From: Amphibalanus amphitrite
Taxonomy: Eukaryota; Arthropoda; Thecostraca; Balanomorpha; Balanidae
DNA: 64,000 nucleotides
Direction: 5' to 3'
NCBI RefSeq assembly: GCF_019059575.1
Contig: NW_024882976.1
Span: 91,217 to 155,216, forward strand
Program-made: the position numbers and the translations under genes
In this document: positions 16,980 through 44,219 of the stretch, one piece after another
Numbering within the stretch: the stretch's first letter is position 1
How the letters are laid out: each line of letters begins with the position of its first letter
Notes under the pieces: generated by a model
The model's database searches: none
The model's input: only the letters and a program-made list of their open reading frames with translations
What the model was told of the DNA's origin: nothing

Positions 16980-17189
16980 ATGGATGAGTGCGTTGTGAAT
17001 GATGTTGTGAATGATGGAGCGGATCGCGGAGTGAAGCTGGCACAGGAGATGATGGACAGAACGAAAGATGAGGACCAGCTGCAGGCGCTGGCCCAGGGGG
17101 TGGCATGGCACAGGTCGCTTTACGGTCACACGAAGAAGGACGTTACATGGGTCTGTAGTGGTAGACAGATATTAAACAGAGTGCGATGA
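16980..17189 (+). pseudogene. Open frame of unknown function, right arm
   Basis: Mirror copy of the left-arm frame: NDGADRGVKLAQEMMDRTKD, then the same helix-like segment and HRSLYGHTKKD. The near identity is explained by the arms being inverted copies, so it is not evidence of selection by itself. Confidence 0.35.
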
Positions 17190-17565
17190 CGTTACGTGTA
17201 GACCGTAGAGTGTAAATGGGCCTCAGAGCAGTGTACGATGTTTAAGACGGATCTCAGAATGGGGTACGATGTTTTAGACGCAGCTCAGAATAGGGTACGA
17301 TGTTTCAGACGGTTTTCAGAGCAAGGCATGATGTTTGTTTAGACGGATCTCGGAGCAGGGTACGGTGATGTTACGCAAGGACGGTCTCAGGACAGGGTAC
17401 GGTGAACTTAATACCCATAGCTGCAATGTAAATTTGATTCTGTCCAATCTGCGTTTATGTGATGTGCCATTGCCTCAGACGGTTCGATCTGAAGCGAGAT
17501 ATTTGAAGCACTAACCTGAGACCTTTATTACGGAGCGAGCGAAGCGAGCGTAGTCTTTCCTTAGA

Positions 17566-20186: not shown

Positions 20187-20859
20187 ATGAAGGTGAGGGG
20201 ACGGGAAAACCATTTGAATATAAGAGTGAATTCAAGGCGCTGTGGTAGCGTTCTTTCAGATCCAGAGCTTTAAAAACTCGTGTTTAGCAATGAGTATATT
20301 AAAGATGTTTTCATGCAAAAGAAATATCGAACTTGCATTGATTATGATGTTCTCGTTTCAGTTCTTCGTGGTTGCCGCCCTGCTGGCCGTTGCCGCCGCC
20401 GACAACGCGCCCTACACCACTCCGGCGCCCACCTACGCCCCGACCTACAAGCCCACCTACGCGCCCAGGCCCGCCTACCACCCCCAGCCGGCCTACAAGC
20501 CCGCTCCCTACAAGCAGGAGAGCTACGACCAGCCGCCCAAATACGACTACAGCTACGACGTCCACGGATACGGAGACTACGAGCCCGTCTTCAACGCCCA
20601 GGAGGCGCGTGACGGCTACGCCACCCAGGGATCTTACTCGGTTGTGCTGCCCGACGGCCGTACCCAGACGGTCACCTACCGTGTGGATGACGCCTACTCT
20701 GGCCTCATTGCTGACGTCACCTACGAGGGTGAGGCCCGCTACGACGAGTACAAGCCCAGCTACAAGCCCGCCCCGGCCTACAAGCCCGCCCCGGCTTACA
20801 AGCCCGCCCCAACCTACAAGCCCGCCCCTACCTACAAGCCCACCCCCGCCTACAACTAG
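20187..20859 (+). CDS. Cuticular protein, pro-resilin-like RR family, 167 aa
   Basis: Secreted chitin-binding cuticle protein. Exon 1 is ATGAAG (20187-20192), the intron 20193-20361, exon 2 20362-20859. The protein has a signal peptide (about 1-15), a Tyr/Pro spacer with T-Y-A-P and Y-K-P units (17-60), the RR domain (62-127, closing YEGEA) and a tail of Y-K-P-A-P repeats ending TPAYN. The intron groups this gene with those at 25342 and 28756. Its 3' flank is an inverted match to the 3' flank of the gene at 25342, so the two form a tail-to-tail pair separated by transposon insertions. A second potential acceptor near 20260 is not used by homology. Confidence 0.94.
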
Positions 20860-20953
20860 AGCCAAGTCAATATTGAGCTTACTTTAATGTTTGCCAACGC
20901 GTGCAGTGTCTCTTATGTATGCCTGTGTATTTATTGAAAAGCGAATGCGAGTC

Positions 20954-20959
20954 AATAAA
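20954..20959 (+). terminator. AATAAA polyadenylation signal
   Basis: 95 bp after the stop codon, within the GAGTCAATAAA phrase conserved among the paralogues. Confidence 0.8.
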
Positions 20960-21703
20960 AAAAAATGATTACACGCATATGGTGCGGATGAGATGTCAAC
21001 ATGAAAGATAAGTGTCCAAATGTGATGAAGTGACGTACCGACTAAAGAAAATGGTCATACGAGCAACGTACGACTATAAGACTTTATATAGCAAGATCTT
21101 AACGTAGCTGAACAATGCTTGATTCCACCCGATGGCGAAAAATCACATAAATGGATCTGTTTCTACTAAACACCTTTGTGCAATCTGTCAACCTCCAAAT
21201 TCGCCCTTCTTAACCCAGATTCTGACCTGGCGTTTACATTATCCCCTGCTCAAATTGGCGTCACACGACACAGACGATACTCCCATACAACACCAATAAA
21301 ACTGGCCAGAAAATATGCGTCGCATGACGAATAACAATATGCTATGCAAACACCTTTTATAAGCCGTTTGCTATTGGAACATGTTCGAAATCGCCTAGTC
21401 AGTACTCAGTTCAAATTGGCAAAAGCATAACCAACACTGGGTCCACTTGAGCCCTGCTCTAAATATGCTAAATTTCGAGTTTGCACTGTCGTTTGACATA
21501 CGAAGTTCAAACTTAGGAACGCTGCGGCCTCTCTGATCTCGCAAATACCTTTCAGAGATGATTAGCTAGAGAGAAGGGTGGGGGGGCGGCGTTATACTCC
21601 GTTTACTCGGTCAGACCCGCACTTAGCTAAGCACAGGTATCCTAACCAGCTGCAACTGACTAATTGTGACTTACTGAATGAAATACAAATACGTTCAACA
21701 AGG
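20960..21703. repeat. Paralogous intergenic segment, unit 1 (first part)
   Basis: 21060-21130 is the reverse complement of the 3' flank of the gene at 25342. From about 21390 the + strand is similar to 32345-32500 and to part of 27700-27880, showing a shared ancestral intergenic segment. No gene is visible. Confidence 0.6.
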
Positions 21704-21707
21704 TTAG

Positions 21708-22869
21708 CCCGCGCCCCGCTGGGGTCTGCCGAGCAACGCGCCCTGCTGGGGGGGGGGGGGGCAATTTGGCCCACCCCGGTAAGATCTCGAGAACCACGCA
21801 ACATAGCGACAAGCGGCAAGCGGTGTTGGATAGCCCTACCAGCGAACTACCTTGTGACCCAGTTTCATTCACCTAGGTCAAACCGATGACGTCACAGGTC
21901 AGGTCAAATGCCGAATTTTCACCGTTTCCAGGCATTTCAAGAAATAAATGCGTTATAAAATCGAGTAAAATGCATTTCATTGAAAATCATCGGTGGGGAA
22001 ATGTTCGTCAAACACATATTCTGCTATATGAGGTCACGGATACCATGTCAGGTCACAGAGGTCTGGTCACTGAGGGTAACAATATGAAAATAACATGTGA
22101 TGCATGTTTTATGGTCCATTTTATATCCCAAATACGATTATGTGGGTCAGGTGGCCTTTGGGGTCAGGTTAGATTATGTTCTGGTGAAGGTCAGGTCAAG
22201 GTCAGGTCAAATTAGGTCAAATTTCAAAGTTGATATTTTTGCATAAAATGAGTATCGATTCGATGCAGCTCGTCACGGGGAGTTCAACGGTGGTCTTTGT
22301 TTTGAGCTACGTGGTCTAGAATTGCCAAAAATTGAGTTAAAATATTGGACGTCATCAATTTTGAGTTTTTTTTTTTTGCTATAACTTGGCCAAAAAAGAA
22401 GGTATCGATCTAAAATTTGGTATGGAGATAGAAGAGGGTAGGGACTATCACATCTATTCCTGTTTTTCGATATTCGGGAAAATTTTGGGATTTTTTGCGT
22501 TTTTCTAAAAACAAATCAATATTTGATTTTTTTGGGAGTCAAAATCCAAAATTTTTGAAAACCCGAGGCAGCAGTTTTGTAGCACTGCCTTTTGTCTACA
22601 TGACCATATAAAGAACTTTGAAATTGCTTGGTAATTGTAGTTTTTGTGAGCGTTTCAAGATTTCATGTTTTTTGCTCATTTTTGTTCGAGCATGACCTCA
22701 GTTTGACCTCAATAACTCCTGACCTAAAGTGACCTAAGACTTAAAATTTGTGTGATGGTGTCAAATTGAGGCCCGGGAAGGTACTGAAAATTTGGCCGCC
22801 GTTTTCTTGCTATTCAGGAAAAACCACAGGGGCGGGGCAAATTGCCCCCCCCCCCCAGCGGGGCGAGGG
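21708..22869. mobile_element. TTAA-type element B, copy 3, with TTAG target duplication
   Basis: Inverted ends CCCGCGCCCCGCTGGGG (21708) and CCCCAGCGGGGCGAGGG (to 22869) are flanked by TTAG on both sides (21704-21707 and 22870-22873). Paralogous segments at about 28055 and 32684 lack the element and read CAAGGTAAGA across the site. The interior holds GGTCA repeats and shares sequence with 63180-63550. No transposase. Confidence 0.88.
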
Positions 22870-23431
22870 TTAGAAACGCACTTAAATTTCGATGATTTTA
22901 GTAAAGCAGATCCAGCTATGATTCCTTCAAAACAAGATTCACAAGATTGCTACTCGCAGAGTCTTATCAGGGAATGTCACCAACCTCATTCAAAAAGGTC
23001 GGCTACCTTCCTCAAAAAAGTATCGTAAGCGGAAGCATTTCTCAAACAACACTCATGCAGTAGCCGTATCACGTTGAGCGAAGAAAGATAAAAACTACCA
23101 GGTAGTTTATGTTAGCTATGGTTGCAGGAATTTGAGCAATGAGGTCGTAGGTTGTCTAAATCAGTGGTCGGCAGGTCCTCCGGGGTCGTGCCCCCTTTTT
23201 TGGCGCCAGGCAGGGCCATTACCCCCACCTACCAGACCCCATTGGTGATACAACCAAGGTTACTGAAATTCCATACTTTTCCGTGACTCTTTGGGTACCA
23301 TATCTGCGAGAAACCGCTGCATTGAGTGACAGATCTCTTTCAAGCTTTCAGGAATTGATAAAGGCAACAACATGTACAAAATTTGTATCTCGGAGATTTG
23401 ATGTCGGTGACTAAAGTTCAGGTCAATTTCA

Positions 23432-23462
23432 CGCCCTCTCCCATTATCAATGGGAGAGGGCG
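23432..23462. repeat. Perfect hairpin, 14-bp stem, 3-base loop
   Basis: CGCCCTCTCCCATT, loop ATC, then AATGGGAGAGGGCG. Confidence 0.9.
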
Positions 23463-24169
23463 CAAAGTCAATGGTAGAAAATTGAAAGGCGCCTGTTTTG
23501 GACCAGTGTCATTCCTAACACTGTGACACTCTTATTTACAAGTAAACATGACCGCTGAACCGGAAAACTGCACCCGTAACCCCACTGTATGTCCCTGAGG
23601 TCATTTCAGGTAATGAATGGTCTAACAGCTATTCGCTAATAACTTTGATAAAGGCATCCCAGAGCGATGAAAATGCCTTAGATGTGTTCAGCTCGACGAT
23701 ACGGGTCGACTGATGTGCAACAAAACCTTCGATGCTTCTCGACGGGAGGATCACGATGCTGATACAAGTGAGCTCTTGCAAGTTTTGAGTGAAAAGTTAT
23801 TTAAGAAAAACTATCAGCAAGCAACGTACATTTTCAATTTTGGCAGCTTTTGTCTCCTGCAGGCTAAACCGTCTTCGGTTGAATCTGAGGACAGGCATCA
23901 GAAAAAACGTTAAGAGAGCTATCGAATGCGTTTTTCCGCAGCGCTGTAGCTCTATCCTTTCCTGAGCTATAGGCCAGTTTATCGAAAATTGTCAAAGGTT
24001 GACCTGGAACTTGGCGAAATTTTACGTTCGATGACCTCTGGTGACCTGACCTTTGATTTGACCTAAAAGGTGACCATAGTTTTTTCTTCATCATTTCTTA
24101 CGCTCTTTCGATCGCCGACTACGGCGTTTCGCTAGTGAAACAGGAGCCAAGTTAATAGGGGGTGTTTAA

Positions 24170-24240
24170 CCTCCATCTCCAGCAGGGCGTGGAAATCCAG
24201 GAGCCCCAGCGGGGCGCGGGTTAACCCCCATACGTATAGG
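24170..24240. mobile_element. Element B right end abutting an element C-like left end at one TTAA
   Basis: CCCCAGCGGGGCGCGGG runs directly into TTAA (24221-24224), then CCCCCATACGTATAGGTG, which resembles the left end of element C at 31040 (CCCTCGCCCGTATTGGTG). Other element C-like sequence lies inverted at about 24440-24600. The elements are incomplete. Confidence 0.55.
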
Positions 24241-24923
24241 TGTAGCGGGTATTTTTCGAGAATAGATCACATTAAAAGGGTCGGATCACGAAAAAAACTG
24301 TACCATCGAGCCGATCATTTTTATCTGTCCTGAAAATGGCATGACCTTAACCCGAATAACCGTTGATTTGTGAGATCTTTCTTGAGATCATGGCAGGCCA
24401 CAAAATCTCACCTCAAGAAGTTACAGCAGGACCCGATTAACTCGGCAGTTGTTATTGACCTATGGAAGGTCACCCAATGACCCACGACCTTTAAATTGGG
24501 TAGCAGCAGCTGCTTATCTTCACGGGCAACACGCTCAATTTTTCTGCCAAGCTCCAGCTCAGAGACCGAGATGCTCAGGTCAGGGTGCAATGGACGACTC
24601 CTCTCCCTTGCGTTAGTGACTGTGAAAACGCCAATAGACGAGCGCCGGGTAGTACATGACAGTTACTTTCCACGACTGTACGGAATGGTGAGCAGCTACA
24701 TGAAAATTGGCATGGGCCAGCTAATCAGTTCATGCTTTGTGCGTTTGACCTCGACTAATCTTTGAATCCTGGGGCACAATAGTTGCGATGTTTGTCCCAT
24801 CAAGGGAGCCATTAATTCTAAAAAAGATGAGGCTTTCTCAGAGGCCCTCATTACCCCCCGCCGAAGGGCGCCATTACCCCCAAAGGGGGCATGCCCCACC
24901 ATTTGCCGACCCCTGGTCTAAAT

Positions 24924-25241
24924 TAATGCGGTATACTTTAGGCTATACAGGACATCGCTGCGGCATTTCCTACGGAGCCCTTTTCAGTCCTGCTATAACC
25001 TTTAAAAGACAAAGCTCCTGAGGTCTGGCGCTCGTCACGTATCTTGCGGTATTGGGGATTTTTCGCCATCGAGTGGAATCGAACATTGCTCAGCTACGTT
25101 AAGGTCTTGCTGTCCCAGGTTTAGTAGTCGTACCTTGCTCGTATGACCATTTCCTTTCGCTAAACCCCTTCAGCATCAATCGACACTTGTCCTTCATTTT
25201 CACATCTCATCCAGCACTATATGTGTAATAATCATTTGTTT
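24924..25241. repeat. Paralogous intergenic segment, unit 1 (last part)
   Basis: Continues the segment interrupted by the hAT element. CGGCATTTCCTACGGAGC and the following bases match 28330-28380 and 36580-36650. It is the 3' flank of the minus-strand gene at 25342. Confidence 0.75.
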
Positions 25242-25246
25242 TTATT
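25241..25246 (-). terminator. AATAAA polyadenylation signal (minus strand)
   Basis: TTTATT on the + strand, 96-101 bp beyond the stop codon of the gene at 25342. Confidence 0.8.
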
Positions 25247-25341
25247 GACTCGCATTCGCTTTGCAATAAATACACACCACACGTAAGACACACTGCACGG
25301 TTTGGCAGACAGTTTGAAGTAAGCCCATTATTGACTCGTGT

Positions 25342-26034
25342 CTAGTTGTAGGCGGGGGTGGGCTTGTAGGTAGGGGCGGGCTTGTAGGCGGGGGCGGGCT
25401 TGTAGGCGGGGGCAGGCTGGTAAGCCGGGGCGGGCTTGTAGGCCGGGGCGGGCTTGTAGCTGGGCTTGTACTCGTCGTAGCGGGCCTCACCCTCGTAGGT
25501 GACGTCAGCAATCAGGCCAGAGTAGGCGTCATCCACACGGTAGGTGACCGTCTGGGTACGGCCGTCGGGCAGCACAACAGAGTAAGATCCCTGGGTGGCG
25601 TAGCCGTCACGCGCCTCCTGGGCGTTGAAGACGGGCTCGTAGTCTCCGTATCCGTGGACGTCGTAGCTGAAGTCGTACTTGGGCGGCTCGTCGTAGCTCT
25701 CCTGCTTGTAGGGAGCGGGCTTGTAGGCTGGCTGGGGGTGGTAGGCGGGCCTGGGCGCGTAGGTGGGCTTGTAGGTCGGGGCGTAAGTGGGCGCCGGAGT
25801 GGTGTAGGGCGCGTTGTCGGCGGCGGCAACGGCCAGCAGGGCGGCAACCACGAAGAACTGAAACAAGGACATCATCGTCAATATAATTTCCATTTTTCCA
25901 TTCCATGATACCTCTTTCACATACTCATTGCTGAGCACATGGGTTTTCAAAGCTCTTCAATCCATGAGAACATTAGGGCAGCGCCTTTAATTCAATCTTA
26001 CATTCAAATGGGTCTCCCGTCCCCTCACCTTCAT
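25342..26034 (-). CDS. Cuticular protein, pro-resilin-like RR family, 173 aa
   Basis: Secreted chitin-binding cuticle protein. On the minus strand exon 1 (ATGAAG) is 26029-26034, the intron 25858-26028, exon 2 25342-25857. Domain order is signal peptide, Tyr/Pro spacer, RR domain with EARDGYATQGSYSVVLPDGR, then a tail of seven Y-K/Q-P-A-P-type units. It differs from the gene at 20187 by a few residues, for example YDEPPKYDF instead of YDQPPKYDY before the domain. The intron and the 5' upstream region (to about 26355) match the gene at 28756, so the two are tandem duplicates. Confidence 0.94.
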
Positions 26035-26063
26035 GTTGTTGGTAGTGAGGCGGTGTGTGATCG

Positions 26064-26140
26064 TCTGATGGTGGGTGCGGTGTGGAGCCGTGTTTTATAC
26101 ACGGTCCAGCTGCGGTGACCGCCAGTGGTGGTGACCCTGC
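26064..26140 (-). promoter_or_regulatory. Conserved promoter core, gene at 25342
   Basis: On the minus strand: paired GGTCAC words (26116-26140 region), TATAAAA (26093-26099) and initiator TCAGA (26064-26068). Same arrangement as at 20085. Confidence 0.85.
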
Positions 26141-26179
26141 CGGGGGCGGCGCAGCGGCAGGCGGGGTGTTGCCGGCTGC

Positions 26180-26790
26180 AGCAAATGGTATCCCAAGCTT
26201 GGACGTCTCAACATACCCGTAATCATTGGTAAGGTCTTCGATTTCTGAATTCATTCGCAACATCCCAAGTCTTTTCATTGATTAATAAAATATCCGAAAA
26301 TAACCATGTTTCAAAATGCAAGCTAATTGGCGCATGATACGAGTATAAAAGTAAGAACGATAAAATTTCCATTCAGCGGGCATCTTGCAGGTTTTTCAAT
26401 GTATGCGCAAGCATGAACACTGGCGGAACTAAAAGAAAGCCTCTTTCACCGCCGGGGGCATAACCCAAAGACGTAAAAAAATCAGGTTTCGCTCCCGTAT
26501 GCAAGTTTAAGTGATCCTGATTGAGGTTAAGCATTCTTTTTATTCCAGAAAAACTCCATTGATTTCAGGCGATGATTCAGGTGATTTCAGGGGATTTGGT
26601 CGTATGCCCCAAAAGCCAGCTAGATCCCAAAGTGGGGATGTACGTGTAAATATGGGTACAGAAGTGTATCAGTGCATATATTTTGCGCAAGATTCACATT
26701 AACCCTATGTAGTGACTCAGTTCACCAGACATCTGGGCAGACAAACGGGACGGACATTGTGCAGCCAAGCGGCAACCAGGTAGTTGACAG
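26180..26790. repeat. Duplicated 5' upstream region and unassigned sequence
   Basis: 26196-26355 matches 29605-29770 upstream of the next gene. The remainder up to 26790 shows nothing recognisable. Confidence 0.65.
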
Positions 26791-27168
26791 GTACAGCCCT
26801 CAGCTCACTGCGTGGTAGGTGTTCTTTTTTCGACAAAACCGATAAATAACTCGAGAACCATGGAATCGGTCACTCGAATGCCTAATCACCAAGACGCGCG
26901 AGGCTCCACACCTTAGAGTAGGCTCATCGTGGTATAAAATTTCCACCCATTTGGCAACGATACACAGAAGTTTTTATTTGCCCCAAAACAAACTTTTGCC
27001 TTTTGTTGCCACACATGGTGTACAATTCATTTAATGATGCACACAATCAAAGAGTAGAGCATGGCAAATCTGTGCTATGAATTTCGATCAACTGATAACA
27101 CTGCCCTCGAGCTATTATTGGTTTTGTTTAAAAAAGAATACCTACCGCGAGTGAGGTGAGGGCTGTAC
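26791..27168. mobile_element. MITE with about 40-bp inverted ends
   Basis: GTACAGCCCTCAGCTCACTG followed by GTAGGTGTTCTTTTTT at the left is mirrored by AAAAAAGAATACCTACC and GTGAGGTGAGGGCTGTAC at the right, with a few mismatches. 378 bp, non-coding. No clear target duplication was seen, so the superfamily is open. Confidence 0.7.
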
Positions 27169-27424
27169 GCGAGTCATCAGCCACCGGTGCTTGGCGAAAC
27201 GTTATTCATATGGTCCCTTTCGATCGTTAAATAGAAGAATCCCATGTAGCTATGGGTTCAACGTTTTATTTCCATCAGATTATTGGCAAATTGGATTTGA
27301 GTCAAACTAGAGTCCACCGGTTGGAATCGCGTTTTTTTAGATCAAAAACTGTTATTTGATTGCAGAGGTACTGTGGTATTAGGATTGAGACGTACTTGGC
27401 ATCAAAAACTCTCACGTGACTTCG

Positions 27425-27655
27425 CCCAATCTTACCAATGCCGTAAATAGGATTTGGCAGCACTGGCCGGAGTTCACGGCTCTCGTATCAAAGATATCCC
27501 TTTTATTTACACCCAGCTAATCTTGTCCAATGATTTTGATAGCGTCAATGATTATAAATGTTGCCTGAATGAATGAATGAATGAATGAATGGGGAATAGT
27601 TCTGAATGTTACCAAATGCCGTGAATGCGCATTCACGGCATTTGGTAAGATTGGG
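27425..27655. mobile_element. 231-bp MITE in unit 2
   Basis: CCCAATCTTACCAATGCCGT at the left is inverted at the right (CGGCATTTGGTAAGATTGGG). The paralogous segment at about 32275 runs straight from GTGACTT to GGTTGTGCTAG without it. Contains a (GAAT)n tract and the palindrome at 27609. Confidence 0.75.
27609..27648. repeat. Perfect 40-bp palindrome
   Basis: TTACCAAATGCCGTGAATGC followed immediately by its exact reverse complement, with no loop. It lies at the right end of the 231-bp MITE. Confidence 0.95.
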
Positions 27656-28650
27656 CCGGTTGTGCTAGAAAGCTTAGAAAATTGCCAGCTGATTCTGTAG
27701 TTGAAATTCGGAATGCATTTGACATACCTTCTGTCGATACTCGATACGTGCTTCAAAATTGAGCATAACATAAGCAACACTGATTTTTACTTGTGCCCTT
27801 TAAAAAATATGCTCAAGTTCGAAATTGCACCGCCAGTTGACATGAAGTTAAAATTTCGGAAAACCACAGATCCGTCTTTGTGACAACTCCTCAACATCAC
27901 ATCACGGAATTCGCCCATACTTAGTTTCGGAGACAATTTAAAGGAGGGAGGGCGTTCGGTTCCCTTCCCTCAGTGGCGTTCAGGTAAGCGCGGGTATCCC
28001 AACGAGTTGCAATGCAACTGACTAAGATGGCACACTGAAAAAAACTGTTCATCAAGGTAAGATGCTTAGAATTGTCTAAGAGTATTGACTGAACTTTCCT
28101 TTGCTTTTGGGTTGTTTTAACACGATCATGAGCGAATAGTTGTGTCATCGAACCTTTAAAAGGGGTCGGCTCAAATGTCATATTTCTTAAAAGATAAGTA
28201 TTCTAGGGGAAAACATTCCTGAAACGACAATATTGTTGAATTAATCGTATTTCCTTGCAGAGTTTCAAGCAATGAGATCGCATGTGTTGTCTGAATGGAT
28301 GCAGTACACGATATCTGTAGCGCACCTTCCAGCATTTCCTATGGAACCTCTTTAGTCCTGTCGTGGCCTTCCTGAGACGAGGTTCCTGCAGGGTCTGGCG
28401 CTCGCCATGTACGAGCAGTACTGTCTATTTTCCGACATCGAGTGAAATCAGGCATTGCTTGTTCAGTTGCATAAAGTGCATAAAGACATTGCTTTCTGAG
28501 GTTTTTGACAGCGTATAGTAGAGCTTATGCTCCTATCTAGCACATGGTACATTTTTCTTTTAGCATGGTTACTTCGTCATACGTGTATGAAAAAAACTAT
28601 CCTCCATATTCACATTTCATCCAACATCAAATGTGTAAAATTCATTTACC

Positions 28651-28656
28651 TTTATT
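28651..28656 (-). terminator. AATAAA polyadenylation signal (minus strand)
   Basis: TTTATT on the + strand in the conserved TTTATTGACTCGC phrase. Confidence 0.8.
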
Positions 28657-28755
28657 GACTCGCATTCGCTTTGCAATAAATACACACAGACATACATAAG
28701 AGACACTGCACGCTTTGGCAGGCATTATTGAAGTAAACCCAATATTGACTCATCT

Positions 28756-29459
28756 CTAGTTGTAGGCCGGGGTGGGCTTATAGGTGGGGGCGGGCTTGTA
28801 GGTAGGGGCGGGCTTGTATGCGGGCGCGGGCTGGTAAGCAGGGGCGGGCTTGTAGGCCGGGGCAGGCTTGTAGCTGGGCTTGTACTCGTCGTAGCGGGCC
28901 TCACCCTCGTAGATGACGTCAGCAATCAGACCAGAGTAGGCGTCATCCACACGGTAGGTGACCGTCTGGGTACGGCCGTCGGGCAGCACAACCGAGTAAG
29001 ATCCCTGGGTGGCGTAGCCGTCACGCGCCTCCTGGGCGTTGAAGACGGGCTCGTAGTCTCCGTATCCGTGGACGTCGTAGCTGAAGTCGTACTTGGGCGG
29101 CTCGTCGTAGCTCTCCTGGTGGTAGGGAGCGGGCTTGTAGGCCGGCTGGGGGTGGTAGGCGGGCCTGGGCGCGTAGGTGGGCTTGTAGGTCGGGGCGTAG
29201 GTGGGCGCCGGAGTGGTGTAGGGCGCGTTGTCGGCGGCGGCAACGGCCAGCAGGGCGGCAACCACGAAGAGCTAGAACAAGGACATCATCGGCAATGTAA
29301 GTTCTACATTTCTTTTCCATAAAACCATTTTCATTTACTCATTGCTGAACACATGAGTTTCAAGCGAGTTTCAAGCTCTTTAATCCACGAGAACGTTAGG
29401 GTATAGCGCCTTAAATTCACTCTTACATTCAAATGGGTTTCCCGTCCCCTCACCTTCAT
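28756..29459 (-). CDS. Cuticular protein, pro-resilin-like RR family, 173 aa
   Basis: Secreted chitin-binding cuticle protein. Exon 1 (ATGAAG) is 29454-29459, intron 29272-29453, exon 2 28756-29271 on the minus strand. It has the usual signal peptide, Tyr/Pro spacer, RR domain and Y-K-P-A-P tail. Two changes stand out at the acceptor: the intron ends TAG where the paralogues have CAG, and the first base of exon 2 is C instead of T, giving Leu in place of Phe at residue 3. Both leave the gene intact. Inside the domain Ile replaces Thr in the ADVTYEG phrase. Confidence 0.93.
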
Positions 29460-29488
29460 GTTGTTGGTAGTGAGGCGGTGTGTGATCG

Positions 29489-29562
29489 TCTGATGGTGGG
29501 TGCGGTGTGGAGCCGTGTTTTATACACGGTCCAGCTGCGGTGACCGCCAGTGATGGTGACCC
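29489..29562 (-). promoter_or_regulatory. Conserved promoter core, gene at 28756
   Basis: TATAAAA (29518-29524, minus strand), initiator TCAGA (29489-29493) and two GGTCAC words upstream. Confidence 0.85.
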
Positions 29563-29888
29563 TGCCGGGGGCGGCGGCGCCACGCGGGGAGCGGCCGGCT
29601 CCAGCACATGGTATCCCCAGCTTGGACGTCTCAACATACCCGTAATCATTGGTAAGGTCTTCGATTTATGATTTCATTCGCAACATCCCAAGTTTTTTCA
29701 TTGATTAATAAATGATTCGAAAATAACCAGGTTTCAAAATACAGGCTAACAGCGCATGATATAATAGTAAGAACGGCGACCCTGTAGATGTACATAGTAG
29801 TAAGTTGGCGACTCTACTCGAGCTTGAGCATTGAGCAATGCCCAGTTCGATTCCAACTGGCTACCACTGCACACAAAAATTCGGGAAC
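29563..29888. other. Upstream flank
   Basis: 29605-29770 is the duplicate of 26196-26355. The rest is unassigned. Confidence 0.6.
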
Positions 29889-31043
29889 TTAACCCGCGCC
29901 CCGCTGGGGGGGGGGGGGGGCAGAATCTGCCACCCCTCCCGTTTTCGCCAATAACTTCTAAACGCGTTACGCCAGCGACGTCAAACTTTCAGTGCCTTAT
30001 CATACATCAATTTGACACGTTCCCTGAAAATTTGAGCGAAATCCGTCCGGAAAAAAATTGAGAAAATGACGTTTTAGTGACGTCATGTTCGCCATTTTAA
30101 AACGGCAAAATGTCAAACGCCGCTAACATCTTCATTTTTAAAGGAATCAAGACGTAACAAAAAGATTATACGTGATTTTACTTTGTCTATCAAATGACTA
30201 TCTCGGTTTTTTGAAAATTTTGGATTTTGGCCCATTTTTTAATTATAAAATCCAAAATTTTGAGTGTATCAATAAACCGGAATATATGTCAGAGAAGTGG
30301 TCTATGTGCACGTACATACCAATTTTCAGAAGAATCGGTTCAAAAATGTGGGAGTTATTCAAAATTTTATGACGTCACGACACACAAAATTTTTGAAGAA
30401 TGATTTTTTTGGAAGTTCTAGACCTCGTACGGAAACAAAAATAGCACCATTCGACTCGCCGTGAAAACCACATCAGATAGACACCTTTTTAGGCCTTAAC
30501 AACCAACTTCAAAATTTGACCCCACTTGACCTGACCTTGACCTGACCTCGACCTGAAATTCATCCAGAGGTGGTCCATATCACTTATTGAGTGTGCCTAT
30601 TGAATTCTATGAATAAAATGACCCATAAAACATGTGTCGCACATGCCCTTTTCTATATTTTGTTTTTGGTGACCTGACCTGACCTGACCTGACCTGACCT
30701 TGACCTTGAACTTTGAATGAAATTGTGTGCAAAGAATATTGTCTTGGTAGCCTAAGAACACGTTTTGGGCAATCAGTCTCAGTCCATTCTTCGGCAACTA
30801 CGGTGCAAGGCCGATATTGTAGAAATTTGCATTTTGTACCCTTGACCTGACATTGACCTGACCTCTGACCTACTTAAGCAAAAACATTGGGCTCCTAAGA
30901 TCCGCCTTGTTGAGAGCTTTCGATTTCCGTTTTCCCCCTCTTTCTACGACCATCGGTTCGGAAGTTAGACAGGGGGGGGGGGGTAGAATCTGCCCCCCCC
31001 CCAGGGCGTGTATGGCTGAATAGCCCAGCGGGGCGCAGGTTAA
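29889..31043. mobile_element. TTAA-type element B, copy 2
   Basis: TTAA (29889-29892) plus CCCGCGCCCCGCTGGGG; right end CCCAGCGGGGCGCAGG plus TTAA (31040-31043). The interior is closely similar throughout to 8829-10015, including the TGACC run at 30670-30706. The right TTAA is shared with the next element. Confidence 0.88.
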
Positions 31044-31944
31044 CCCTCGCCCGTATTGGTGTTTTGCCAGCCGCGAACGTATACGGCGGGAGGGGGTCCG
31101 TTGGACACCCCCCTTGCCCTTTGGCCCCTGATCAAGCTAGAGCATTGCGAAAAAAAACGAGCGAGTTACCCGTGACGAGAGAAAGCCGATGATACCCGAT
31201 TTTAAGGTCCTAGTTCATTGACTGACCTTCCAAGTCAGGTCAATGACCCAAAAGTCGGGAAAATCGGGATCTGTTGGAACGTCGTAAAGTGTGGCTGCTA
31301 CGAGGTTTTCCGCGGTGATGATCACGAATATCATGCCATTTTTTATCACAGATGATGTCTTCATGCATTTATGTCAGGTCGGGTCAGGTCAGGTCAGGTC
31401 AGCAAGTAGGGGTCCTGTTGGTATTCTTATCAGGTGTCAACCGTCTCTGATAGCTTCGTAACATGTTACGAACGCACCAAAACTACTTTGCGAATGTTCA
31501 AATGGTTGCTAAACTCGAATTTAACTCCAAATAGGTACTAGCCTAGAAACATGTTAAACTCGAAAAAGTGAACCGAGATCATCAAAGTTCAATGACTTGA
31601 CTTGACCTTCAGGTGACCTTGAAACCCACCCTAATGCATGGGACCAACGTCCAAAATCATATCACATGTTTGAGCGCTTGGAACCACGCAAAGACTGCAA
31701 ACGCGCGCCTAATGCAAGTCGACATACGCCGAATCGCGATTCCAGCCAAGCATGGTCTCGTAAAGTAGATCACAGGTCAAAGGTCATTTGAGTCAGAATT
31801 ATGAAATTTTCAGGGTAGGTGTAAAATTGATTACCGCGAGGGTACTAAGAGTTTTGTCGCGATCGGCCGCTTTTTACGCGAGTTCTTCGCGAAAAACCGA
31901 GGGTGGTCCATTCGACCCCCTACATATATACGGGCGAGTGTTAA
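31040..31944. mobile_element. TTAA-type element C, abutting element B
   Basis: TTAA (31040-31043) plus CCCTCGCCCGTAT; right end ATACGGGCGAGTG plus TTAA (31941-31944). The body has GGTCA-rich tracts and a short frame (about 31147-31215) reading KKNERVTRD...IPDFKV that recurs in other elements. No transposase. Confidence 0.8.
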
Positions 31945-32975
31945 TCAGATTTTTGTCCTGCTAGATCACAGTACTCGTAAGATCGGTCCACCCCGGTGGC
32001 GGACGACGCGGATGCCGATGAATATACGACCGATGAAAAGTGTTGGTGTTTGCTTCCAGCTGCATCCGATCGGTGTGCTCTGGGACAATGAGAACTGTCA
32101 GGTGAATGGTTTGGGACTGCAGGTTTGGGAACATTTTCATCAGACCTCAGTTCACCGATGGGTTAGGTTGGAATCGTGTTTGTCAGCTCAGAAACTGTTA
32201 TTTGATTGATGAGGTGCTGTGGTATAAGGATAGAGACGTACTTTTAGGCATCGAAAACTCTCGCGTGACTTATGGGTTGTGCTAGAGAGCTTCGAAAATT
32301 GCCAACTGATGTTGTAGTTCAAATTTGGAATGCATTGGTACAGCTTGTCAGTACTTAATTCAAAATTGAGCATAACATAACTAAGCAATACTCCGTAGTC
32401 CGTTCACTCGAGCCATAAAAAATATGCAAAGTTTTGAACTTGCACCACTATTTGACATGAAAAGTCGAAATTGTTGAACGTTCCAGATGCGCCTTTGTGG
32501 CAACCCCTCAACACCACCTCGCGGGACTCGGCCACAGCTAGTTTCGGAGAGAGAAGTTGGGGGAATGGCTTTAGGTCTTCTTCCCTCAGTGGCATTCAGC
32601 TTAAGGTTCAGGCAAGCGCGGGTATCATAACAAGTCGCAACTGACAATGATGGCATACTGAAAGAAATAAAAGTGTTCATCAAGGTAAGAAACTTAGAAA
32701 TAGTCTGAAAGCACAAACTTAACTATGCATTGTTTATGTGTCGATTAAACACGGCAATGGCCAAACAGTTGTGCCATCGAGCTCATAAAAAAGGTCAGCT
32801 CAAATTTCATATTTCTTAAAAATAAGTATTTTAGGGGAACATTCCCGAAACTATGCTATTTTTGCATTAACCGTGTTTCGTTGCAGAGTTTCGAGCAATG
32901 AGATAGTATGTTGCCTGAATGAATGCAGTAAATGGTGAATGGCGGTGAAAAATGGTGTAGCCTTCACCGCTTCCT
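31945..32975. repeat. Paralogous intergenic segment, unit 3 (first part)
   Basis: Matches 27260-28330, including the CCCTTCCCTCAGTGGC/TTCCCTCAGTGGCATTC block and the GTTCATCAAGGTAAGA block. It is interrupted at 32975 by the 3.6-kb element. Confidence 0.7.
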
Positions 32976-34707
32976 GGGGCATTCCACGATAGATCGACCA
33001 AAAAAACTTAAAATTTACACCCGCATATTTTATTTTTTGCTTAAAATTGGTCTAATGGGTTGTTATGGGCGGGGAACCCAGCTGTGGCAAGGATTTTTTT
33101 CTTCGAACAACGGTTTCCGAGATATAGCCTCGGGCAGTTCCTGGAGGTCACGCTGCAACCCTATGTTTGGCGGCTTATAACTCAGAAACTATTGGTTTTC
33201 TATGGTAAAAACTTAATATGGTTCAACTCGCAATCAACCAACAAACGTTTTGGCTATCTCGGATTTTCGAATTTTGAAAATTTTGATCACGTGACATCTT
33301 GACCTTTTTTTCGAAGAGTGACCTTGATATTTTCCCAACTGAAAGTCGCAATTTTGTCTGATGACGATTAAAGCCTTATCAATTGTCATTCATATGCGAT
33401 AATAAAAAAGTGGCTTTCGGCCTGCGTTGACCTCAGGTCAGGTCATTTTTATGACCTTCCCATTATTACGAGCGGGAGCGACAGCGAGATCTCGAGAACA
33501 AAGCAAGATAGCGACAAGCGGTAAACGGCACAGGGTACACATGGATAAGGTCTACACTTTTTACTGAGGTCATTTTCAGGTCAGGTCAAAGATGACGTCA
33601 CAGGGGTAAAAAGAAAGTCTAAATGGCGGCACCACATATAAATGAAGTTTTTCTCGAATAACTTTCGAAGTATCCCAGCTAGGAACAAACTAATAGCACC
33701 ATCGTGATCCTCTCGTCGATCCGCATCGAAACATGTGTATGTTGACCTCGAAAGGTCAAGGTCAAAAGTTGACCTTAGGTCACGTGACCTTAAGGTCATC
33801 ATATATATCATTCGATGGGCCTTGACGAGCTGAACACAATGAGCCTATCCGCGCGGCTGTAGGGGAGAGTGGGGCACATTCGTGCAAAAAATGGATAAAC
33901 CCATATATCTGTTCTTTGGTTAGTGCAATGGCAAAATTGTTGATTGTAGTATGGAAAGGAACTATTGCAGATAGTTTTCCTCTGTTAGTTATCCTATAAA
34001 ATTATTGCTTCCATTAGAAAAAATGACTTTTATTAACTCTGAACATTTGCACGAAACTGCCCCACCTATGGGGCACATTCGTTCAAGAGATGGGGCACTT
34101 CCGTTCACCCGGCAAAATTCGAGAAATTACCGGGCATTACCAGAAATTTACCAAAGGAAATTGGCAGGGGGTCATTTCACTTGATTCCTTTCGACAAGAA
34201 TGCATTGCACAACAAATGTAGAAAGAATGGGCTGGCCAACAAGAATGTGCCAACTGCCGGCCTCCGTGACCTCGCCAAGTTCGCGTGAATTGCTCGTCAC
34301 GACGTCGCAAGCAGTCGAGACTGAGTCAGGCGAGCGTCATTAGAGAAACCTACTACAGATAAAGTCATAAATCGCAAAAACTAAAAAAAATATGCACGAA
34401 TGTGCCCCCAGGCAGTGCGTACACGAACCTGCCCCACAACGTTATTAGTAATATATTTCAAAATTTCTTTTTGAAAAAATGACACTTTTCAACAAACAAG
34501 TTTGCAGCAGTTCCGTGAATAGAGTGGGCTTCTTCACCCCCAATTTTGAAAAGCTGAACCACATTTCCGAGTCAGGATCACGAAAATGGATGATATGAGA
34601 AAAGTTTGGAAAGCTCACGAATATTACAAATTTGCGTTTTTATCAAGCATGACAGCAGGTACAGTGTTGTCTTCTACGGTGAACGAAGGGCGGCAATGAT
34701 AGACATA

Positions 34708-35488
34708 CAGGGTGATTCATAGCCGTGTGACCGAAAATAAATGAAAACTACAGAAAATGCTTTCGTGCTACATGCGATTGCTAAGTACCATATGAAAGAG
34801 CCAAGTCTGAAGTTTTGATCCATGTATTGCATCAGTCACATACACTTTTCCTTTGAAGCTCACACTCCTTTTAGACAAGATGCTCAAAATGGCCACCTCG
34901 GCGACGGATGCATTCCAGCACCGGGCCCTAAAGTTAGCGATGGCGCGGGCGCACCACATGTCTAAGGAAATGGAGCCAAAGAAGCTCATGCAATGGCGTC
35001 CTTCAGCCGCATAATATCCTGGGGACTCTGCTAATAGACCTAGGACTTTGGACTTTGCATAGCTCCAGAGGAAGAAGTCTACGACGTTGAGATCCGGCGG
35101 GCGTGGCGCCCACCGGACCTCAGCGCTCTTTGAAATCAACTTTCCGGGGTTCGCTTACCAACAGTTTTTTCTGCCGTGTTTATCATTGAACCGTGTCCTC
35201 TGTTTTGAATTTATTAACAATTCTATTAATTACATATCTTCTTTGGAGCTTCCCTAGGGTGCAGGCGCTCAAGACGTGCAGAAATATCTTGTGCGTTAAA
35301 TTATACAAATTACACATTTTTACATTTTGCTGCACTGTGTACATCTTGAGCGACACACACAGACCAGACCAAGACAGAACAAAACCTCATAAAATTTGCT
35401 ACTAGCACGTGAAATTTCGCGCGCAAATATGCTATCCTCTTCTCAAGAGAGATTAACTAAATAGGTCACACGGCTATGAATCACCCTG
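34708..35488 (-). mobile_element. Deleted mariner-like element, nested
   Basis: Inverted ends CAGGGTGATTCATAGCCGTG, identical over 25 bp, flanked by TA (34706-34707 and 35489-35490). It holds a transposase fragment on the minus strand. At 781 bp it is shorter than a full mariner, so it is an internally deleted copy. Confidence 0.88.
34768..35139 (-). pseudogene. Mariner-like transposase, C-terminal fragment
   Basis: The open frame contains WAPRPPDLNVVDFFLW, the signature around the third catalytic acidic residue of mariner transposases (the D before FF), followed by a typical C-terminal region ending in a cysteine-containing WCARAIANFRARC segment. The DNA-binding domain and the first two catalytic residues are missing, so it cannot be active. 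Confidence 0.8.
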
Positions 35489-36585
35489 TATTTCCATAAT
35501 TTACCTTGAGCTCGTGCAGTCACTCGTGTTCCCATAAACTGCTGAAAACGAATGTGCCCCATGCACGAATGTGCCCCACTCTCCCCTATCTCAAACCTGT
35601 AAGGAGTTATTAGCAAAAAACATTTGGTGACCTTTAATGACGTCACATGACCCAAGAGCAACGTCACAGTTGACCAAGAGCAAAAAAGGTCTCAAGGTAG
35701 TCAAAGTTAGTCGCATATGGAGTCACTCATGGTATATTAGGCAATTCCGACGCGTTTTAGTGTAAAAATAAGGGAGCTGATTTTTCCCCAATTGACTTAT
35801 AATGGGGTGGTCAAGAAATTGACCTGACCTCAGGTCATCGGTATCGAAATTCAAAACGAACTGGCGCTAGGCGAAAGCAAACGGATTGGTGCCTATTCTA
35901 CGTCTCTTTCTTTATTAGATCAAAAGGTACAGCCAAAACTATTTTGACTTCCTTTTTACCCAGGTGTGACGTCATCTTTGACCTGACCTGAAAATGACCT
36001 CAGTAAAAATTGTAGACCTTATCCGTGTGAATCCTGTATCGTTTACCACTTGTCGCTATCTTGCTTAAGTCTCGAGATCTGGCTGTCGCTCCCGCTCGTA
36101 ATAATGGACAGGTCATAAAAATGACCTGACCTGAGGTCAATGCAGGCCGAAAGCCACTTTTTTATTGTCGCATATGAATGACAATTGATAAGGCTTTAAT
36201 CGTCATCAGACAAAATTGCGACTTTCAATTGGGAAAATATCAAAGTCAGTCTTCGAAAAAAAGATCAAGATGTCACGTGATCAAAATTTTCAAAAATCGA
36301 AAATCCGAGATAGCCAAAACGTTCGCTGCTGGATTGCAAATTGAACCATATAAAGTTTTTACCATTGAAAACCAATAGTTTCTGAGTTATAAGCCGCCAA
36401 ACATAGGGTTGCAGCGTGACCTCCAGGAATTGCCTGAGGCTATATCTCGGAAACCGGTGTTCGAAGAAAAAATCCTTGGCACAGCTGGCTTCCCCGCCCA
36501 TAACAACCCATTAGACCAATTTTAAGCAAAAAATAAAATATGAGGGTGTACGGCTTTGGTCGATCTATCGTGGAATGCCCCTCCT

Positions 36586-36867
36586 ATGAAGCCTTTCAGT
36601 CCTGTCGTAGCCTTCATGAGACGAGGTTCCTGGGGTCTGGCGCTCGCCACGTACGAGCACTTCTGTAGATTTTGCGCTTTCGAGTGAAATCAGGCATTGC
36701 TTGTTCAGTTGCATAAAGGCATTGCTTTCTGAGGTTGTGTAATCCTAACTAGCACAAGTAGCAATTTCCTTTTAAAGAGGCTTACTTCATCATACGAGTA
36801 TGTGCATCGACAGCTATCTCCCACTTTCACAGGTCATCCAACACCACATGAATACAAATCATTTTCT
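36586..36867. repeat. Paralogous intergenic segment, unit 3 (last part)
   Basis: Resumes the segment: GAGACGAGGTTCCTG...CTGGCGCTCGCCACGTACGAG parallels 28375-28420. Confidence 0.75.
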
Positions 36868-36873
36868 TTTATT
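36868..36873 (-). terminator. AATAAA polyadenylation signal (minus strand)
   Basis: TTTATT on the + strand, in the same position relative to the stop as in the paralogues. Confidence 0.8.
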
Positions 36874-36972
36874 GACTCGCATTCGCATTGCAATAAATAC
36901 ACACAGACATACATAAGAGACACTGCACGCTTTGGCAGACATTAATGAAGTAAACCCATTATTGACTCCTCT

Positions 36973-37674
36973 CTAGTTGTAGGCGGGGGTGGGCTTGTAG
37001 GTGGGGGCGGGCTTGTAGGTAGGGGCGGGCTTGTAGGCGGGGGCGGGCTTGTAAGCCGGGGCGGGCTTGTAGGCCGGGGCGGGCTTGTAGGCCGGGGCGG
37101 GCTTGTACTCGTCGTAGCGAGCCTCACCCTCGTAGGTGACGTCAGCAATCAGGCCAGAGTAGGCGTCATCCACACGGTAGGTGACCGTCTGGGTACGGCC
37201 GTCGGGCAGCACAACCGAGTAAGATCCCTGGGTAGCGTAGCCGTCACGCGCCTCCTGGGCGTTGAAGACGGGCTCGTAGTCTCCGTATCCGTGGACGTCG
37301 TAGCTGAAGTCGTACTTGGGCGGCTCGTCGTAGCTCTCCTGCTTGTAGGGAGCGGGCTTGTAGGCCGGCTGGGGGTGGTAGGCGGGCCTGGGCGCGTAGG
37401 TGGGCTTGTAGGTCGGGGCGTAGGTGGGCGCCGGAGTGGTGTAGGGCGCGTTGTCGGCGGCGGCAACGGCCAGCAGGGCGGCAACCACGAAGAACTGAAA
37501 GAAGAACGTCATGATCAATATAGGTTATTGGTCTCTTTTGCACGAAAAGCTTTTTTACGCTCATTACTGAACACTGTTTTCGAAGCTCTTTGACCTGAAA
37601 GAACACCACAGCAACTCAAATTTACACTCATCATGAAATGACAAAGTTGGGCTGAAGAGTCCCCTCACCTTCAT
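36973..37674 (-). CDS. Cuticular protein, pro-resilin-like RR family, 175 aa
   Basis: Secreted chitin-binding cuticle protein. Exon 1 (ATGAAG) is 37669-37674, intron 37495-37668, exon 2 36973-37494 on the minus strand. Layout is as in the paralogues, but the tail begins directly with Y-K-P-A-P units after YDEY and lacks the S-Y-K-P step. Its intron is clearly closest to that of the + strand gene at 61601 (shared ACTCTTCAGCCCAACTTTG and TTTGAGTTGCTGTGGTG), not to its immediate neighbours. Confidence 0.94.
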
Positions 37675-37703
37675 GTTGTTGGTAGTTTGGCGGTGTGTGA
37701 TTG

Positions 37704-37780
37704 TCTGATGGTGGGTGCGGTGTGGAGCCGTGTTTTATACACGGTCCAGGTGCGGTGACCGCCAGTGATGGTGACCCTGC
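37704..37780 (-). promoter_or_regulatory. Conserved promoter core, gene at 36973
   Basis: TATAAAA (37733-37739), initiator TCAGA (37704-37708) and two GGTCAC words upstream, all on the minus strand. Confidence 0.85.
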
Positions 37781-37834
37781 CGGGGGCGGCGGCGCCACGC
37801 GGGGAGCGGCCGGCTCCAGCACATGATATCCCCG

Positions 37835-38240
37835 CGTACCCGTTATACGAACCTCGAAAAACTCATGTCGTCAGGCAATATAGATGTATTCATACATTAA
37901 TTTAACAGACAAACTAAGCTTTTGAAAGAAAGGCTACTGGAGCTTCATATAAAAATTGGAGCGGCGATACAATTTTTCTGTAAAACGTCTACCTTGGACT
38001 TTCCAGGTATGCACACACGGACAAAAAGGTGCTGTCTCGATGCAGCATACAGCGAATTTTGTAACAACAAAAAAACTCATATAGGATTTTCTTGAGTTGC
38101 TATGCAATAAAAAGCAAACAATATATAATAAAAGATGTTGATTTTTGTTACCCTTTAAAAAGACAACTTCAATGCTTGATTTCGGACGCTGCGGGCCGAT
38201 GTGGCCAGAAGGCCTTCTGACAGAACTATCAGATTGGGCC
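37835..38240. other. Unassigned interval
   Basis: Similarity to the upstream flanks of the other genes ends at about 37832. Nothing else recognised. Confidence 0.4.
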
Positions 38241-38244
38241 AGGA

Positions 38245-38602
38245 TGAGTGGTGCCAGTTCCAGAGAATGTATGTCCAATGTCCGTCCAATGTCCGGTATT
38301 TTCGTAGACTGTCCGTCCAAAAATGTTCGAAAACTACGCAATAATTTACACACAGCACTGCTATTAAATTTGCTTTTAAAGTCCTACCACCCGCCCAAAA
38401 AGTGCTTATTATACTGAGAGCCGAGCTTTCTATTCGCCAATCACTGATACACATAACTTTATTAAAAAAAAAATAATGCTGAGGTGTAGCAAGTGATTGT
38501 CCAATGTTTTCCAAGACTTGTTTCCTTTGTCCAACCAATTTCCGAATTAGATATTAGACAAAAACGGAATTCCGAAGGTCCAACTGCCGATTGGCACTAC
38601 TA
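38245..38602. mobile_element. Possible degraded hAT MITE
   Basis: GAGTGGTGCCA near 38246 and TTGGCACTACTA ending at about 38602 are inverted, with the similar flanking words gccagga and gccagca. The ends resemble those of the hAT elements at 2657 and 46276. The boundaries are approximate. Confidence 0.45.
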
Positions 38603-38676
38603 GCCAGCATATACGCTGCCTGCAATGTAGGAATATAAGTGCACCTCTACAGATATTTGCACAGGGAACCAAATAT

Positions 38677-38900
38677 AGAGATGTCAATCGGATGCCAACT
38701 TATTGGTGCGCCGATACCAAACCGTAACCAACTTGATAGTTGGCAGTTGGTAGTTGGTATTCCAGTTAAATGGTTTTGGTATTTTGTTCGTTTTATGAAT
38801 CCTCATTAACGGTATTCGATTATCTAAAATGGGTAGAAGTTGGTATTTCTCTTACTTCAGTTTTTGACATTTTGCTATTGTTTTTGTTGATGTTTATTAT
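38677..38900. mobile_element. Possible single end of the TAGTGGTGTCAATCGG hAT family
   Basis: TAGAGATGTCAATCGG is followed by repeated TTGGTATT and GTTGGTA words like those inside the element at 46276. No second end was found. Confidence 0.45.
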
Positions 38901-41455
38901 AGTTTAGGATTGCTTCCAACATTACAGAACAGTGGCAAATCGCTCATATGTATTATGCAGAAGAGCATTTTACACTGAGCAATGCATCATGTAAACGTTG
39001 CTTGATAGTTCACACGTATAAAATAACAGAAGCTGATAATCACATCGAAGTGCATGACAGTGGCAGTATAACGAAAAAGTGATGCGGATTTAATCACAGC
39101 TTCCTTTTCACAGTTAGTAACACTGTCAAGGCCAAGAGCGGCGATAATTGTCGCGAACACGACCTAGACCTGGATGATTCGAAGGAACTCAATTGCCACC
39201 ACCGGGTTGCGTCATGGGAACTGTTACCGTTACGGTCCAAGGCGGACATGAGGACAGGTGGCGCCGCCGCCACTCGCATAGCGGCGGGAATGTGAACTAA
39301 CCTGTTTACCATAAGGCCGCTGTGCTAACGGCCGCTGCGGGCGCCGTTTCGGGCTAGTTTTGACTTTGTACCGCAATTAATGGTTTATTTATAATAAAAA
39401 ATGGACTAGCGAGAGTCGTGCCGGAATCAGAATTCAATGTTCTACAAAATTAAGCCATTTTCATTGTGATCACGTCATCGACTTCACCGCCCAACCCAAT
39501 AAAGCAGAAATATGTCGTGTCACCGGTGATTACACGCAAAAATTCTTTGGCATATAGCATAAAAACCAGAACACCTTTGACTGCAGCGACTATGCGGTAC
39601 TACAGAAAATTGTATGGCCTACCTAATGGTGCCCATTACTTAATAATTAAGCTGAGTATTTCGTCGCCTAACTCTTGTAAAACCGTATGTCCGCTTGTCT
39701 ATGGAGTTTGGACCGTAACGCCATTTGCTCGTGACCAAGCCCTTCCCGTGGAGAGCGACCGCATTTTCACCGCAACATTCCAGACAGTGAGCTGGCCGGA
39801 ACGGTCAGCGATACCATCACGACGTGTACCACCCAACGGCAGCCAAACCAGCAGCCGAACGGCAGCTCTGGAGAAAGATCCGAGAAAGAGACACGCCGCG
39901 GTCAGATCTGAGAAAGGGACACGCTCCAGTCACCACGCAACACTGCTGACTTCCTCATGATCTACGCGGAACCCATGGACCTCATAACGACCCACACCAA
40001 AGGCCACTCACCAACGTATAAGAATTACTTCAGCGTAAGTACACGCGTAAATAACCAGAGACAAATTATCGCAGAGAGAAATCGCCGTGGCGACCTTCTG
40101 GGGCGGGGCCGGCCTCCGGGCGCCGCCGCCGCGCCGGCGGGCACCGGGGCACGGCTGCCGGGCGGTTCCGGCCGGTTCCGGACCGCCCCCGGGGTACCGT
40201 GCCGCACGGCGACCCCGTTCCCGACGCCACCCGTGCGACAGTTGGGCGGCCGATTGAAGCCGTTTCAGGGCCGAGGCCGGAGGACACTGTCCGTTTCAGC
40301 GTGGGTGGCTCGGGGACGGTGAAGGAGGAAGACGTCCTTTCACGCCGAGCGCAGACTGTCGTGATACGCCATGCAAGGTGGCAGGACAGATGTGACATAC
40401 CTATAAGTGCGTATCTCACATCCTCAACGTGACAAGACAGCCCAGAGAGGGAAAGAGACAAGCAAGGTTGTCGGTGCTATGATGTGTTGTGCAGTGTGCA
40501 CGGTAACAGCCCAGGGAGGGAGGAAGGGTGTGCCGGCCGGCGCCGCCCTCCCTCGCTCGGTCAAGGCGGCGCGGCGGGACGCGAGTCGCCCCTCTCCAGC
40601 CGGCCCGGCACCCGTCCGCCACATGCACTCACAGTGATCGCTCCAGTATGCGGCTGCAAGGACACGAGCTGGCCGCTGGCGCAATCGAACATCATAGGCC
40701 GCAATCGGCAAATGTACCCCATGAAGCGGCGCCGACAATGATTGCTCTGATTAAAACAAGGTGGCCATTGGCATAGGCCATATCGTACATGATCTACATA
40801 AAGGCTCTCAGCGCAATGGTTTAGTGCACGATTAGCTGTCAGTGGGAGGGGCAGCCCGTGATGGAGGAACCTCAGTGGACTCAGAGAAATAGCTTCTTAG
40901 ATGAGGTGCCGAGCTAGCCGTTCGTTTTGAAGATAAACTCATGGCTGCACAGAGCAGGTCCGGTTATAGTGCTGAGACGGGTGTGGTTGTGAGAGACACA
41001 CTTGTAAATTAATTGCCAACGTGCATTCTGTAATGCAGGAACCTAGTGTCACCTAGATCTTCGAGGTCATGCAAGGACACCCGATGACGGAAAGCAGTGG
41101 ACAGCAGCCTGCACCTGCCCCACATTATCGCTCATCTGTCTGAGCAGGGGTACGGCAGATGGCGGGACGGGCAGCCACGCCCCCGACAGCCGCCGACCGT
41201 GTCGTCCGGCGGTCGGAACAGTGAGGCAACAAAAGAGTCAACGGCGGGCGAGAGAGTGAGAGATGTCCTGGAGGTTGTGCCCGGGGACTGAAGCCAGGCC
41301 AGCCATAAGAGGACCTGATATTAGCGTTTAGTACAATAGCTAAAAATGATACTTCAGGGACATGGACGGAAGTGAGATAGGTGATCGGTCAAATCTGCAG
41401 TCTGCCCCCCCCCCCCAAAAAAAAAAATAATACTCAAAATATTTTAAAATGTTAA
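38901..41455. other. Unassigned interval with a GC-rich island (about 40070-40640)
   Basis: The island has composition like the cuticle promoters and TATAAG at 40402-40407, but no initiator or coding exon follows. Long open frames here look compositional. Confidence 0.4.
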
Positions 41456-41486
41456 GTTCTAGGCAGACTTGTGCCGGGACCAAAAA

Positions 41487-44215: not shown

Positions 44216-44219
44216 GCTG

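Follow-up and report, generated by a model that had tools for sequence, protein, structure and literature searches.

The 64,000 nucleotides of Amphibalanus amphitrite DNA analysed here (the window), which form the right end of contig C1479 (NW_024882976.1, positions 91217-155216), hold an ordinary transposon history inside an unusually divergent array of cuticle genes. Very probably, an old tandem duplication gave rise to the gene units, after which DNA transposons without a recognised transposase entered single spacers. The case is built on the homology of three units (U1 to U3), on the junctions of the inserts and their target site duplications (TSDs), on the single-copy sites seen in sister units and on a second contig, C480, and on the order in which some of the elements are nested. 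The element families are of known kinds, or probably so, except for an outer element with long terminal inverted repeats (TIRs). The assembly searched comprises 807.55 Mb in 2644 contigs. The genes and elements concerned are the following, with strands where assigned:

20242-20859, plus strand: cuticle gene U0 (exon 2 and upstream frame), tail to tail with U1; open reading frame, similarity to U1-U3, exon 2 read
25342-25950, minus strand: cuticle gene of unit 1 (U1); Pfam PF00379 (Chitin_bind_4), E 2.6e-9
28756-29265, minus strand: cuticle gene of unit 2 (U2); open reading frame and self-comparison
36973-37518, minus strand: cuticle gene of unit 3 (U3); open reading frame and self-comparison
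21708-22869: element B, a putative piggyBac-type copy; TIR CCCgCGCCCCGCTGGGG, TTAG on either side
23162-24915: hAT-type copy, 1754 bp; TSD GTCTAAAT at 23154-23161 and 24916-24923
27425-27655: miniature inverted-repeat transposable element (MITE), 231 bp, of a NuwaI-like family with CWG as TSD; own TSD eroded
32976-36581: outer element; TIRs of about 650 bp starting GGGGCATTCC, TSD TCCT; absent on C480
33862-35586: middle element, in the outer element at TA (33860-33861, 35587-35588); TIR GGGGAGAGTGGGGCACATTCGTGC
34708-35488: inner element, 781 bp, in the middle element at TA; TIR CAGGGTGATTCATAGCCGTGTGACC
34771-35154, minus strand: broken protein fragment of the inner element, 128 aa, which from a motif we take to be mariner-like

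The segments behind the genes at 25342, 28756 and 36973 had been predicted to share ancestry, and the alignments, which lie far above shuffled controls, bear this out. With the inserts cut out, whole units, which hold some conserved gene-proximal sequence, reached z = 30.2 (U1 with U2), 36.7 (U1 with U3) and 80.0 (U2 with U3) against 100 single-base shuffles. Among separate pieces, scored against 200 shuffles, the U3 spacer alone gave z = 52.7 with that of U2, the piece left of element B 15.6 and the piece after the hAT copy 11.3; the stretch between B and the hAT copy was the weakest, with 6.1 (against U2) and 6.5 (against U3), and in BLAST its last ~50 bases alone matched (E 0.007). U2, which extends over about 27268-31039, is 85% identical to U3 over 27319-27422/32166-32271, 73% over 27658-28306/32275-32930, and again 85% on the gene side, from 28337 and 36582 on (self-comparison). 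U1 matches both of them at 62-63% over 21374-21707 (BLAST, E about 1e-14), and its similarity to them resumes from about 24965 on (self-comparison and sensitive BLAST). The aligned spacer sides are 72-81% identical, and the pairwise alignment revealed no loss of homology across the insertion points, the outcome that the original prediction had named as its refutation.

Every insertion site is empty in at least one sister unit, each insert is confined to a single unit, and the empty-site strings quoted earlier are all present; three of the four inserts are bounded by TSDs whose single-copy form is visible in sister units. Since the spacers are homologous and old and each insert occurs in one unit only, the insertions postdate the duplications, as had been proposed. 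That all element limits are fixed to the base holds for element B, the hAT copy and the insert at 32976-36581; the limits of the MITE come from comparison with five other copies, because its own target duplication can no longer be read there. GTGACTT, said to be joined to GGTTGTGC in unit 3, is separated from it by ATG, on C480 too. An excerpt of a survey of the PHIS superfamily (PMC4482050) likewise uses insertion-free sister sequences to set ends and TSDs; here, in contrast, a single tandem gene array holds the four sites reported, and a second haplotype is available for comparison.

The junctions of element B are exact to the base, and both U2 and U3 carry TAAG at this site. Besides its counterpart on C480 (329496-330673, 92% identity), 28 loci of the family were fetched; among the 15 printed, 12 have TTAA on both sides, and two pairs of these look like one locus on two contigs. 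The duplication in these copies and a TIR starting CCC are as in the piggyBac superfamily, and the TTAA flanks mark the B family as probably piggyBac-type. Unlike the superfamily, the window copy and its C480 counterpart are both flanked by TTAG, which reflects a non-canonical target or else similar mutations in the two, and no transposase was found in the pieces scanned (one of two listed frames, without a meaningful Pfam match).

The limits of the hAT copy are equally exact. TSDs of the hAT superfamily follow the pattern nTnnnnAn, and the window copy shares with them an 8-bp TSD with T at position 2 and A at position 7; its TIR is CAGTGGTCGGC. It differs from the superfamily in that no transposase was recognised in its 1754 bp (frames of at least 70 aa were listed and one was scanned, without a Pfam match). 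Its place is occupied by one GTCTGAAT in U2 and one GCCTGAAT in U3. On C480 the site is empty twice, each time with a single intact GTCTAAAT and without the footprint that hAT excision usually leaves. The two empty sites go with a unit duplicated on that contig: the unit-1 gene and spacer stand there in tandem (C480:330793-332688 and 334415-336309, L012 and L009) at 99.84% identity, a very recent copy-number change that the window does not have.

Five of five other copies of the MITE have CTG or CAG duplications, which the window copy does not. According to the excerpt of PMC4482050, the NuwaI group of the PHIS superfamily has a CWG target duplication and a TIR usually starting GGG; the MITE family shares the duplications, and its TIR GGCCCAATCTTACC begins GG. 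In contrast to that group, it is represented by a 231-bp MITE in which no transposase was seen, no search for a partner having been made, and whose TSD in the window is not intact.

The insert of unit 3, previously described as a single 3.6-kb element, proved to be three DNA transposons nested in one another, and the nesting alone fixes the sequence of the three insertion events as outer, middle, inner. The nest spans 3606 bases, of which relatives do not have positions 887-2611; they run straight through the TA at the insert point (10 loci with the junction printed). Without the insert that it contains, the outer element measures about 1.88 kb, and 10 of the 12 other copies examined have a 4-bp TSD. 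C480 does not have the nest and reads ATTCCTATGAAG at this point. The middle element has inverted ends of 24-25 bp and is about 0.94 kb long without the inner insert; the 39 other relatives scored align with the first 846 bases of it, and mostly with the last 99 too, and do not have the 781 between. Middle and inner elements share TA duplications with Tc1/mariner-type elements; in contrast to these, the inner one has only the broken 128-aa fragment, which matched 0 Pfam families and in which no DDE/D transposase was recognised.

Two further ideas about the outer family were rejected. The sole DDE-like frame found in a relative of the family, on contig C194 (L023), had been a candidate for its autonomous partner; it sits in a further nested insert with 25-bp inverted ends, and in Pfam it gave weak helix-turn-helix matches below cut-offs. 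The divergence between the two TIRs does not serve as a clock, because the arms already differed before insertion: the left TIR is 97-99% identical to those of 39 other scored copies and 92% identical to the right TIR.

C480 carries a collinear version of the locus, in which window 4301-5950 corresponds to C480:309132-310810 (89%), 20761-23161 with 24913-26391 to C480:328519-332430, 31470-39231 to C480:342915-346923, and 43769-58794 to C480:348660-363700 (99.85%). Related cuticle genes occur along both contigs, with many similar units on each. We infer that C480 and C1479 are alleles, the two haplotypes of the locus. As element B is shared with C480, its insertion came before the haplotypes split; where collinearity would put unit 2, C480 has no equivalent of it, so that the MITE cannot be placed relative to this split. 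At window 31470-31476, C480 has about 2 kb without counterpart (340874-342914), containing diverged tandem repeats and inverted-looking ends. Two insertions that were not listed earlier are absent on C480:

39228-39720: 493-bp inverted-repeat element; no TSD read
41464-43768: 2305-bp hAT-like insertion; TSD GTTCTAGG on both sides (8 bp), TIR CAGACTTGTGCC; its interior has a near-identical copy on contig C199

In the history that we favour, the cuticle (chitin-binding) gene units would have been duplicated long ago, and the piggyBac-type element B would have landed before the haplotypes represented by C1479 and C480 separated. The window haplotype alone would then have received the hAT copy, the outer element with its long TIRs, the 493-bp element and the hAT-like insertion of 2.3 kb. 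The outer element was afterwards hit by a TA-targeting element, and this in turn by another. The MITE would have entered unit 2 sometime after U2 and U3 separated. Presumably, transposases encoded elsewhere moved the elements, and the hAT copy moved locally within the array. Paralogs, nesting and the second haplotype thereby provide a relative chronology of seven insertions; the kinds of elements and the logic of empty sites are familiar to the field, for which the locus is a good example.

Several observations weigh against this history. The target of B is TTAG, not TTAA; the MITE has no intact TSD, and its unit is missing on C480; two of the 12 outer copies yielded no TSD (one not matching, one whose right end was not found); and no transposase was identified for any family here in the frames and pieces scanned. 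In addition, the divergence between the two contigs left of position 40487 is high for alleles. Substitutions per aligned base amount to 1.65% over 20860-21707, 5.20% in element B, 3.19%, 4.16% and 5.18% in three further blocks, 7.20% over 31470-32975, 5.67% over 36586-39227 and 2.49% over 39722-41463, a block in which all 43 substitutions lie at or before 40487. Beyond 40487 and up to 58768, about 16 kb contain a single substitution. Against these values of 1.65-7.2% stand differences of ~0.1-0.4% in three presumed allelic pairs elsewhere, which are chance finds from a long-match filter that favours close pairs, one of them giving 3 or 13 mismatches depending on settings. In another barnacle, the average coding divergence between alleles is ~5.5%, according to an excerpt of PMC8270832. 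The left divergence makes old paralogous segments or an assembly switch possible, and the array may be read in three ways: as a haplotype block of unusual divergence, as not strictly allelic, or as joined at 40487 by the assembler. The contig pairs L045/L046, L050/L051 and L065/L068 resemble two alleles of one locus, which suggests that the assembly keeps some haplotypes apart.

A haplotype switch or polishing during assembly could have produced both the identical right flank and the change at 40487, an explanation that we take seriously while leaning against it. As this explanation would have it, C1479 continues for about 20 kb of the identical tract before it stops, and the differences within the tract are almost all indels: to the right of the 2305-bp insertion, 15 kb contain 17 gap openings and a single substitution. 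However, this tract also harbours the 2305-bp insertion itself, which has a clean 8-bp TSD and which C480 does not have, and therefore two real types of molecule exist there. Because this tract has 1 substitution in ~16 kb, the insertion must be very young, and an insertion too young for substitutions to have accumulated around it suggests recent activity of the hAT-like family.

Rather doubtful, in our estimation, is a structurally different, divergent haplotype block (1.65-7.2%, with units gained and lost) with an abruptly identical flank, within and between whose versions elements hopped locally; such a block might have been kept by balancing selection or have introgressed. Local hopping is brought in by the hAT copy and the inner element, each of which has its closest scored relative on C480.

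Among 40 hAT copies scored of 7232 first-look candidates, the contiguous 1754-bp form occurs only in the window copy and at C480:271844-273597, and the other 38 have ~190 extra bases near position 155. These twins are ~1 base apart, an estimate from the bit score, and their flanks are unlike, with GTCTAAAT in one case and GTCTAGAA in the other. On C480, ~57 kb separate the twin, which adjoins another cuticle gene, from the empty U1 site, and no second copy on C1479 was among the 40 scored. Local transposition is well known for DNA transposons, and a near-identical twin at this distance suggests a local jump. Beside the TSD of the twin stand nine extra bases (C480:271829-271843); two relatives of its site on C1479 were read, out of five strong matches, and both lack the hAT element and the nine bases. 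The site itself (C480:271687-274194) had been considered as the allele of window 5603-6391, which was rejected, since the counterpart is C480:309132-310810 and the position at 271.8 kb is another gene of the array. The closest relative of the inner element among 39 scored is C480:30633-32065, 94-98% identical in pieces and with different flanks, and the other 38 reach at most 91%; this fits local transposition as well.

We consider it unlikely that a large cuticle array was duplicated and that C480 and C1479 represent its separate copies, with a recently copied right flank in common. The abrupt fall in divergence at 40487, from several per cent on the left to a single substitution in about 16 kb, would suit such copies, as would the many similar units on both contigs and a left divergence well above that of the three presumed allelic pairs. 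However, the two contigs keep the same order and spacing from 4.3 to 58.8 kb of the window, single-copy sequence, for example 37840-39230, finds its matches, among scored places, on these two contigs only, and C1479 ends inside the identical tract, as expected for a haplotype branch in a long-read assembly. Finally, that precise loss, and not an original, never-filled state, accounts for the empty sites of sister units or of C480 is highly improbable: piggyBac elements excise without a footprint, according to an excerpt of PMC7351741, so that a loss of B from U2 and U3 is indistinguishable from absence by the junction, and gene conversion, of which the exons show signs, could have restored outer and inner units, but the hAT empty site has a single unaltered GTCTAAAT in both C480 copies, and a single insertion per element is more economical than a number of independent precise losses. 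A literature search returned nothing specific to this locus, apart from the passage on piggyBac flanks in that excerpt.

For ordering insertions after an old duplication, as favoured here, the genes themselves are of little use. In exon 2, ten pairs of paralogs differ at 2-5 of 71-72 fourfold sites and their introns are 67-88% identical, and three presumed allelic pairs differ at 1-4 of 71-72 fourfold sites, with introns of 63% (U0), 97% and 97%. The exons thus appear to have been exchanged among paralogs. Homogenisation affects the exons but spares spacers and introns, so that gene bodies provide no clock and spacers are needed; the dating by flank divergence that had been proposed therefore works with spacers only, and exon divergence, nearly equal in paralogs and alleles, is unusable for dating arrays of this sort. 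U0 (20242-20859) and C480:327874-328505 are 98-100% identical downstream in most columns and 46-70% identical in the intron and upstream, a pattern as after an exchange inside exon 2; the 5' half of U0 is not allelic.

Elsewhere in the window, a 1.27-kb stretch (16255-17529) matches its own reverse complement at 83%. A repeat of ~1.83 kb (46276-48110) has six other full-length copies at 97-99%; among scored places, C1479 and C480 are the only contigs that have it together with both flanks.

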